Source of the DNA: Mariprofundus ferrinatatus
GTDB lineage: Bacteria; Pseudomonadota; Zetaproteobacteria; Mariprofundales; Mariprofundaceae
Assembly: GCF_002795825.1 (NCBI RefSeq)
Contig: NZ_CP018800.1
Coordinates: forward strand, 1,798,001 to 1,862,000
Direction: 5' to 3'
DNA length: 64,000 bases
This document shows positions 59,620 through 61,423 of this stretch, piece by piece. Positions within the stretch are counted from its first letter, which is position 1. The number at the start of each line of letters is the position of its first letter. Both the position numbers and the translations under genes were made by a program. The notes under the pieces were generated by a model. The model did not search any database and was not told the origin of the DNA. It saw only the letters and a program-made list of their open reading frames with translations.

Positions 59620-60198
59620 TTATCGGACAGTAACACCCTTGATCACGACGGGAACGACGGGCACATCATCGTATTGCCTTACGGATGTGGTCTGTACCAT
59701 GGAGATTTCGTCAACCACATCCATGCCTTTGGTCACCTTGCCGAACACGGCATACCCCCAACCATTCATGTTGCGGGATCTAAAATCGAGAAAGCCGTTA
59801 TCCTTCAGGTTGATGAAGAACTGCGAGGTGGCCGAATGCGGGTCGCCGGTGCGCGCCATAGCCAGGGTGCCGCGAAGGTTTTTCAGGCCGTTATCGGCTT
59901 CGTTCCTGATCGGGGAAGCAGTTGGCCGCTCTCTGAAGTCCGCCTCAAAACCACCGCCCTGAATCATGAAGCCCGGAATTACCCTGTGGAAAACGGTACC
60001 GTCATATGCGGCGGCAAGCGCATACCTGAGAAAATTATTCACGGTTTCAGGCGCCCTGTCGGCGTACAGCTCAATTTCAATACTGCCCTTCGTTGTCTGA
60101 ATCTCGACATGGCGACGGGCATCCTCGGCACTGGCCATACCTACAGCAGATGCAAATATCATTGCGAATACAAGACTCTTCATTAACAGCTTCATCAT
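59620..60198 (-). CDS. periplasmic cyclophilin-type peptidyl-prolyl isomerase
   Basis: A 192-residue cyclophilin with an N-terminal signal peptide (about 1-24, ending GMASA), so probably periplasmic like PpiA. Catalytic-site motifs are FHRVIPGFMIQGGGFEADF (Arg and Phe), LAMARTGDPHSATSQFFINL and YAVFGKVTKGMDVVDEI. It catalyses cis-trans isomerisation at proline during folding of exported proteins. There are three possible ATG starts within six codons. It is convergent with the tRNA. Confidence 0.92.
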   Translation of the reverse strand: MMKLLMKSLVFAMIFASAVGMASAEDARRHVEIQTTKGSIEIELYADRAPETVNNFLRYALAAAYDGTVFHRVIPGFMIQGGGFEADFRERPTASPIRNEADNGLKNLRGTLAMARTGDPHSATSQFFINLKDNGFLDFRSRNMNGWGYAVFGKVTKGMDVVDEISMVQTTSVRQYDDVPVVPVVIKGVTVR

Positions 60199-60313: not shown

Positions 60314-60329
60314 AGTGATCCGGATCACA
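60314..60329. promoter_or_regulatory. CRP/FNR-like operator upstream of the first micropeptide gene
   Basis: AGTGA-N6-TCACA matches nine of ten bases of the E. coli CRP consensus TGTGA-N6-TCACA. The inner 14 bases, GTGATCCGGATCAC, are a perfect palindrome. Its centre is 63.5 bases from the micropeptide start at 60385. FNR-type consensus (TTGAT-N4-ATCAA) matches eight of ten. Confidence 0.6.
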
Positions 60330-60384
60330 TCCCCACCGGCTTTTCCGCAGAGGGTGCCGCCCCCACTGTTTAAAGGAGTAGAAT

Positions 60385-60453
60385 ATGATCAAGTTCGATA
60401 TCGCATACACTGCGCTGACTCTGGCCTGTTTTTTCGTAGCCGCTTCCATCTAG
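60385..60453 (+). CDS. 22-residue single-helix membrane peptide (micropeptide 1)
   Basis: I do not recognise a family. The short frame has an excellent ribosome site, AAAGGAG, nine to ten bases before the ATG. The peptide begins MIKFDIAYTAL and is then almost wholly hydrophobic (LACFFVAASI), long enough for one membrane span. Its neighbour at 60551 encodes a related peptide (identical at 8 of 22 aligned positions, shared FDI, TL, F and V). Both have a CRP-like box at nearly the same distance upstream. That argues for real genes. The function is unknown. Confidence 0.55.
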   Translation: MIKFDIAYTALTLACFFVAASI

Positions 60454-60477
60454 GGCTGCCCTGGCAGACACCTTTTG

Positions 60478-60493
60478 TGTGACATAAAACACA
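60478..60493. promoter_or_regulatory. CRP-like operator upstream of the second micropeptide gene
   Basis: TGTGA-N6-ACACA matches nine of ten bases of the CRP consensus. Its centre is 65.5 bases from the start at 60551, close to the spacing of the first copy. A possible -10, GATACT (60514-60519), lies where a class II activator at -41.5 would require it. Confidence 0.5.
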
Positions 60494-60550
60494 GTCACAG
60501 CTTCGAATCGACAGATACTTCTCCGCATCAACACTCTGGGAGGGGTTAGC

Positions 60551-60622
60551 ATGTTAGAATTCGATATTACCATTTCACTGATTACACTGACCGGCTTTTA
60601 TGTCGGCACTGTCCTGATCTAA
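60551..60622 (+). CDS. 23-residue single-helix membrane peptide (micropeptide 2)
   Basis: A paralogue of the peptide at 60385. It begins MLEFDITISLI and continues TLTGFYVGTVLI, which is one hydrophobic segment with a single acidic pair near the N-terminus. The ribosome site is GGGAGGGG, about five bases before the ATG. The frame ends TAA 21 bases before the convergent glycosylase stop. The family is unknown. Small respiratory-oxidase or stress peptides of this size exist (CydX, CcoM), but no sequence match to those is visible. Confidence 0.55.
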   Translation: MLEFDITISLITLTGFYVGTVLI

Positions 60623-60643: not shown

Positions 60644-61423
60644 TCAGCCTCTTATTTCACGGTGGCGGGAGAGAAGGGCCTGCAGGTCCTGCCAGCTCTT
60701 CTGTTTCTGCTGCGGAGAACGCAGCAGGTAAGCGGGATGGTAGGTCACCCAGGCCGGGATACCCTGATAGTCGTGCCAGCGGCCACGCAGCGAACCGAGC
60801 GGCGAATCGGTCTCCAGCACCGTCTGTGCAGCTACGCGACCGAGAAGGCAGATCAGTTTCGGCTGCAGCAGCTCAAGCTGCTGCTCGAACCAGAGGTTGC
60901 AGGCCTGCACCTCATCGACACGGGGATCGCGATTATTCGGCGGCCTGCATTTGATCGTATTCATGATATAGACCTGTTCACGATCCATGCCGATCGCAGT
61001 CAGCATACGATCAAGCAACTGTCCGGCACGACCTACAAACGGCTCGCCTTTGATATCCTCATCACGACCGGGCGCCTCGCCGATAAACACGATATCAGCC
61101 TGCGGATTACCCACCCCGAACACCACATTCGTTCGCGTATCGGCCAAACTGCAGAGGCGGCATGTTGAGGCCTGCCTTGCCAGATCTTCGAGCGATCCGG
61201 AAGCAGCTTCTACCACGGGAATATCGACAGAGGCGATTGCAGGAGCCGCGACAGAAACTTCCCCTTCCGCAACAGGGACGGTTCCCTTCTCTGCAGCAGC
61301 GGCAGGTTCAGCCACAATCCTCTCTTCTGAAGTAAAAAGGGAAACCGGTGTCTGCACACCGATTTCCCTTAAATACGTTTTTAGAAACAGCTCATTATCG
61401 GCCAAGGCCGGAAAGCCTTCCAA
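60644..61423 (-). CDS. family 4 uracil-DNA glycosylase (iron-sulfur)
   Basis: Excises uracil from DNA to start base-excision repair. The 259 residues have an N-terminal helix (ELFLKTYLREIGVQTPV), an Ala/Glu/Val-rich linker of about 50 residues and the catalytic domain. Motif 1 is FIGEAPGRDEDIKGEPFVGR, and motif 2 is TYHPAYLLRSP. Four cysteines for a 4Fe-4S cluster lie in CRLC, NTIKCRPP and VQACNLWFEQQL. The start is TTG at 61423, directly after the fbp stop. Confidence 0.92.
   Translation of the reverse strand: MEGFPALADNELFLKTYLREIGVQTPVSLFTSEERIVAEPAAAAEKGTVPVAEGEVSVAAPAIASVDIPVVEAASGSLEDLARQASTCRLCSLADTRTNVVFGVGNPQADIVFIGEAPGRDEDIKGEPFVGRAGQLLDRMLTAIGMDREQVYIMNTIKCRPPNNRDPRVDEVQACNLWFEQQLELLQPKLICLLGRVAAQTVLETDSPLGSLRGRWHDYQGIPAWVTYHPAYLLRSPQQKQKSWQDLQALLSRHREIRG

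Follow-up and report, generated by a model that had tools for sequence, protein, structure and literature searches.

Duplicated micropeptide genes with CRP-type operators and predicted single membrane helices in Mariprofundus ferrinatatus

The DNA analysed here, referred to as the window, is a 64-kb stretch (G000:C1:1798001-1862000) of the 2.30 Mb, single-contig genome of the marine iron oxidiser Mariprofundus ferrinatatus (G000). Two very short open reading frames lie in this window between a prolyl isomerase gene and a uracil-DNA glycosylase gene, and each is preceded by a Shine-Dalgarno (SD) sequence and a box resembling the binding site of CRP. The features of the locus, numbered from the first nucleotide of the window, are as follows.

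59620-60198, minus strand: prolyl isomerase gene, divergent neighbour (named by eye from the sequence)
60314-60329, plus strand: CRP-type box 1, AGTGATCCGGATCACA, matching TGTGA-N6-TCACA at 9/10 positions, centred 63.5 nt before ATG 1
60372-60378, plus strand: SD 1, AAAGGAG, kept in relatives
60385-60453, plus strand: micropeptide gene 1 (K-type), MIKFDIAYTALTLACFFVAASI, 22 aa; orthologues in G011, G001, G015, G019 and G020
60478-60493, plus strand: CRP-type box 2, TGTGACATAAAACACA, matching TGTGA-N6-TCACA at 9/10 positions, centred 65.5 nt before ATG 2
60514-60519, plus strand: candidate -10 element GATACT, at a spacing from box 2 that would suit a class II CRP promoter with the box near -41.5
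60538-60545, plus strand: SD 2, GGGAGGGG, of which GGAGG is kept in relatives
60551-60622, plus strand: micropeptide gene 2 (E-type), MLEFDITISLITLTGFYVGTVLI, 23 aa; orthologues in G011, G001, G015, G019, G016, G017 and G020
60644-61423, minus strand: uracil-DNA glycosylase gene, convergent neighbour (named by eye from the sequence)

A preliminary description of this locus had reported both frames, their peptide sequences, their degree of identity and the two box-to-ATG distances, and all of these values proved exact when checked again. The two peptides share 8 identities over 22 ungapped positions, and when the second peptide was shuffled 20,000 times, no shuffle reached the alignment score of the real pair. 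Scans of the peptides against Pfam and NCBIfam returned no family above its cut-off. The genes have no operon partner; their neighbours are housekeeping genes that differ between lineages. The micropeptides are therefore orphans, and the attempt to assign a function by guilt by association failed. A contig scan that used the neighbouring prolyl isomerase as a probe returned distant loci only and was not useful.

Conservation and copy number

Of the 78 genomes of the class that were searched, 13 contain homologues whose frames are intact. Ten of these belong to the host genus (G011, G001, G015, G019, G016, G017, G020, G003 and G009 in addition to G000) and three to one other genus (G031, G089 and G091). 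A search of approximately 400 genomes across the phylum revealed no convincing member outside the class. Two extra phylum-wide matches (E ~0.009) were partial only, and one of them was read and dismissed; weak matches within the class (G071, G025, G087 and others) were likewise dismissed as chance on reading. In eight genomes of the genus, G000 included, the peptide gene adjoins and converges with the uracil-DNA glycosylase gene, and in G003 it lies 1.6 kb from this gene on the same side. The glycosylase gene was searched for in G009 and was not found. At the loci of the other genus (G031:C9:24465, G089:C33:5088 and G091:C121:4853), the peptide is followed by a gene that by eye resembles a hypoxanthine-DNA or mismatch-specific DNA glycosylase, which differs from the glycosylase beside the Mariprofundus genes and is read in the same direction as the peptide in G089 and G091.

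Substitution counts between G000 or G011 and the remaining two of the four closest genomes (one near-identical pair set aside) give dN/dS values of 0.04-0.08 for gene 1, and the values for gene 2 are mostly 0.05-0.3. Synonymous sites are near saturation in several pairs, and in most pairs amino-acid change lags far behind synonymous change. Thus the frame is kept and the amino acids are more constrained than the synonymous sites, as expected of a coding family. Stops or frameshifts in close relatives had been named beforehand as the outcome that would overturn the coding assignment; the frames are instead intact in all 13 genomes and under strong purifying selection. Together with the shuffle test, these data bear out the earlier proposal that the two frames encode related micropeptides. 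We are highly confident, on the strength of these sequence comparisons, that these apparently un-annotated genes form a micropeptide family restricted to this lineage and equipped with an operator of its own, as regards both its existence and its type of regulation.

The number of copies varies by species. One copy is present in G016, G017, G003, G009 and the three genomes of the other genus, two are present in G000, G011, G019 and G020, and three in G001 and G015. In the two-copy genomes the K-type gene (MIKFD) precedes the E-type gene (MxEFD), and every unit of the single, double and triple arrays carries its own CRP-type box. This distribution supports a tandem duplication of the whole regulated micropeptide gene, as had been suggested from the window. 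Duplication of the entire unit (box, SD and ORF) inside the genus would be the simplest history. G016 groups with the two-copy genomes in the glycosylase tree, and may therefore have lost its K-type copy.

Two explanations that give the frames a different role must be weighed against this record. Short ORFs with a strong SD and near other genes might specify leader peptides or lie in a regulatory RNA instead of encoding functional peptides. However, the downstream gene is convergent in the window as well as at the orthologous loci parsed, and amino acids are conserved while synonymous sites vary freely. Moreover, there is no Rfam match (tmRNA and tRNA are the only Rfam hits in the window) and no excess of RNA structure (z 0.74 and 0.44), making this explanation extremely improbable. 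The peptides might otherwise be toxins of a type I toxin-antitoxin system, silenced by an antisense RNA. Their size, hydrophobicity and tandem arrangement resemble those of Ibs/Ldr-type toxins, which are very short hydrophobic peptides encoded in tandem copies. The likeness ends there, because a scan of either strand detected no sigma-70-like promoter for an antisense RNA, the predicted leader is short rather than long and structured (the same z scores reveal no unusual fold), nothing beyond box, SD and ORF is conserved, and the activator site is strictly conserved. A toxin is thus very unlikely. Both explanations are disfavoured, and fit worse than a role as accessory membrane helices (see below).

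The CRP-type promoter and its candidate regulators

No site in the 64-kb window other than boxes 1 and 2 matches TGTGA-N6-TCACA at 9/10 or more positions. Among 197 SD-preceded ATGs in the window, those of the two micropeptide genes alone have such a box 52-82 nt upstream, and only 21 of 20,000 random positions have one at this distance. Across the 21 copies of the family promoter, the core GTGA-N7-CAC is invariant (21/21), the box centre lies 59-78 nt before the ATG, and the match to the CRP consensus is 8-10/10 throughout. The copies therefore present a two-fold symmetric site at a conserved distance, the right half-site varying at its first base. In the alignment of orthologous promoters, conservation is confined to the box, the SD and the ORF.

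In class II CRP-dependent promoters, the CRP site is centred at -41.5. Several of the aligned promoters carry a [CG]ATACT-like -10 element approximately 29 nt past the box centre, a spacing compatible with a class II site near -41.5, which would place the start of the mRNA approximately 20-25 nt before the ATG. The boxes resemble those of class II promoters in both sequence and spacing; they differ in that the right half-site often reads ACACA, CCACA or GCACA. A generic promoter scan found no independent sigma-70 promoter, as expected of a promoter that depends on an activator.

The preliminary description had placed the peptides under CRP/FNR control. That a protein of the Crp/Fnr family controls these genes is very likely from the conservation of the box. 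Within this family the evidence points to CRP rather than FNR: the half-sites are of the CRP type and the consensus counts favour CRP. Matches to the FNR consensus (TTGAT-N4-ATCAA) are 5-6/10 in E-type boxes and 6-8/10 in K-type boxes. The K-type counts, and the microaerophilic habit of the host organisms, would be compatible with an oxygen-sensing, FNR-like activator, but the low E-type counts stand against matches to CRP of at least 8/10 in every copy.

The regulators encoded in the genome point the same way. A search with PF13545 identified two Crp/Fnr-family proteins in G000, with genes at about 2,019,800 and 249,900 of the genome. The closest PDB match of the 220-aa protein is 3dv8, and the best bacterial match of the 233-aa protein is the mycobacterial CRP 3d0s. 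The recognition helix of FNR reads VETISR, and CRP has residues of the R-E-x-x-x-R type. The helices of the two proteins read REVISR and RETISR, so both have the CRP-like pattern, and by eye neither protein has the N-terminal Cys cluster or the recognition helix typical of FNR. We consider an FNR-like activator improbable on these grounds, although the signal sensed by the two Crp-like regulators could be redox. Elsewhere in the genome (G000:C1:1341668), a GTGA-N7-CAC box also precedes the gene for a 135-aa protein that resembles a cyclic-nucleotide-binding domain standing alone.

Predicted membrane role of the peptides

The 19 distinct peptides of the family have several features in common. 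Asp5 is invariant (19/19), and small residues occupy position 14 in 19/19, position 15 in 18/19 and position 19 in 18/19. Residue 3 (E-type numbering) is always charged, being Lys in the K-type and Glu in all others. At residues 14/15 and 19, most E-type peptides carry GxxxG and most K-type peptides C/AxxxA/G. Mean Kyte-Doolittle values over 16 residues are 1.7-2.2, which corresponds to one continuous hydrophobic helix. Peptides of this size have room for one membrane helix alone, and we predict that they are single-pass.

Asp5, the charged residue 3 and the small-residue packing face lead us to favour a role as an accessory helix in some larger membrane complex. We propose that the two tandem genes are separately transcribed under a Crp/Fnr-family activator of CRP-type DNA specificity bound near -41.5, so that the peptides would be made when this regulator senses a certain energy or redox condition. 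Residues 6-22 of each peptide would form a short helix inserted in the inner membrane, its N-terminal edge marked by charged residue 3 and Asp5. The small residues at 14/15 and 19 would pack against a partner, most likely a larger membrane complex that the peptide accompanies or stabilises. The K-type and E-type copies (Lys3 versus Glu3) are possibly alternative or paired versions. The steps that lead from the packing face to the complex are inferred, and the chain as a whole, from CRP-type-controlled duplicated micropeptides up to the accessory helix, is put forward tentatively, at slightly under an even chance.

The main rival retains the same genes and regulation but has the peptides act alone, self-assembling under stress to tune the properties of the membrane or its proton-motive force. 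The precedent is YohP, a 27-aa membrane peptide of E. coli whose glycine motif mediates dimerisation and which reduces the proton-motive force (PMC12719787). YohP, too, is an orphan with a single helix and a glycine packing motif; in our case the peptides are tandem paralogues with their own operators, CRP is absent from the YohP paper, and no sequence relation between the two is apparent. The absence of anything but a single helix in these peptides, the conserved small-xxx-small face that would favour helix-helix dimers, and the occurrence of several other micropeptides under the same promoter type all suit independent action. The invariant Asp5 and the narrow sequence constraint are more reminiscent of a specific partner contact, and we regard action without a partner as rather unlikely.

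If the peptides are accessory helices, a respiratory oxidase is one partner to consider, and the aa3-type cytochrome c oxidase was tempting. Strains CP-8 and CP-5 reportedly possess aa3 oxidase alone, without cbb3 (PMC5513912), and the peptide is present at the glycosylase locus in each of the seven genomes of the genus that are positive for aa3. However, these seven genomes cluster in the glycosylase tree (with weak support for the grouping), so the co-occurrence may reflect one event. Profile and tree tests confined the association to this one clade and produced counter-examples in both directions: the peptide is present without aa3 in G017, G003, G009, G031, G089 and G091, and aa3-type matches occur without a detected peptide in G034, G094, G023, G036, G027 and G029. 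In addition, the oxidase genes examined have no strong box nearby. It is quite improbable, therefore, that the micropeptides are a small subunit of this enzyme. The aa3 co-occurrence is the one respiratory link found, and our comparisons revealed no complex that tracks the family. The suggestion in the preliminary description that the peptides are subunits or modulators of a respiratory or transport complex thus gains support neither for nor against it.

A small subunit of cbb3 oxidase (CcoM or CcoQ) was also rejected as a candidate. No CcoN-type gene was recognised among the PF00115 matches of G000 or G011, consistent with the reported lack of cbb3 in CP-8 and CP-5. CcoM is reported as a 36-aa subunit of the Pseudomonas stutzeri cbb3 oxidase that is linked to oxygen-limited growth (PMC10433244). 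It is a tiny membrane peptide as well, whereas ours are two tandem paralogues of 22-23 aa, for which we claim no sequence similarity to CcoM. CydX, a 37-aa respiratory accessory peptide of cytochrome bd oxidase (PMC4325964), belongs to the same size class; the micropeptides studied here differ in that they adjoin no oxidase gene and match no Pfam or NCBIfam model.

Further micropeptides behind CRP-type boxes

Genes this short usually escape annotation, and it is rare for a membrane micropeptide to have paralogues or a clear regulator. In the present case the regulator type and the paralogues are both visible from sequence, which yields a short list of conserved, promoter-tagged micropeptides that are testable in cultured marine iron oxidisers, organisms whose respiratory control is poorly understood. 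The signature of box, SD and short hydrophobic ORF also offers a practical route to more such genes. A pattern of box, 30-58 nt, GGAG and ATG gave approximately 85 matches in the 78 genomes of the class, versus 1 for the reversed pattern. At 27 of the 78 distinct sites that were read, a hydrophobic ORF of at most 60 aa begins, a tally that applies to matches selected for strong SD and spacing and that includes members of the MIKFDIAYTALTLACFFVAASI/MLEFDITISLITLTGFYVGTVLI family. Other matches begin ordinary genes (by eye, those for outer-membrane, PstS-like and RNase J-like proteins), which suggests that the regulator is global.

The analysis also newly identified further orphan micropeptides of a single helix that appear to be driven by the same promoter arrangement, and two of these lie elsewhere in G000; the preliminary description missed them because it was confined to the window. 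The first (G000:C1:1085536-1085637) is the 34-aa MQKSFNPVSQTEDRAVIIAIVVLVAFYGVVSSLI, preceded by a perfect 10/10 CRP-type box. Relatives occur in G011, G020, G019, G004 and G017, and four of the six family members have a 9-10/10 box 65-75 nt upstream. The second is the 31-aa MTAQQIKKDQIFTIVMVTAVIGTLGVITSYL (G000:C1, about 1701715-1701890, near 1701790), whose GTGA-N7-CAC box was found by a looser pattern and whose relative in G011 is MIKQQAADKHEQLLTIAMVTALIGALGFITAYL at 588161. Where the context was read, these families are also orphans amid housekeeping genes. The family at the window locus thus appears to be confined to its lineage, to have been duplicated together with its operator and to belong to a larger group of micropeptides under similar control. 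A more far-reaching possibility, which we hold to be somewhat doubtful, is that orphan micropeptides of a single helix make up a large part of the regulon of one Crp-type regulator. They would belong to at least three sequence families, some of them duplicated more than once along with the operator, and would act as a transcriptionally coordinated set of helices that retunes membrane complexes or energetics.

Several individual loci were recorded during this survey. An MQKSF-type member in G020 (G020:C16:15396-15497) lies directly upstream of, and divergent from, the complex I (nuoA) operon, whereas this family has other locations in G000 and G011. The 23-aa MNRLLFIEIVVLVIIYGIISSLI, which is like a shortened MQKSF-type peptide, occurs without a recognisable box at G019:C31:75456 and G020:C15:11117. 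Micropeptides of 48-52 aa with the core IALLVPxGLAxLTxFxxL follow the same box at G001:C5:163631, G015:C2:66634, G007:C203:12226 and G022:C52:17929. Finally, a genome of a different genus carries tandem CRP-box micropeptides of 36 and 35 aa with a different sequence (G026:C9:10113-10702; ...SISPLGYVVLSVALFGLAWVVGG and ...EISPRVYAVISVVLFAFAWLMAG), and this pair appears to have arisen by a separate duplication of a similar unit.
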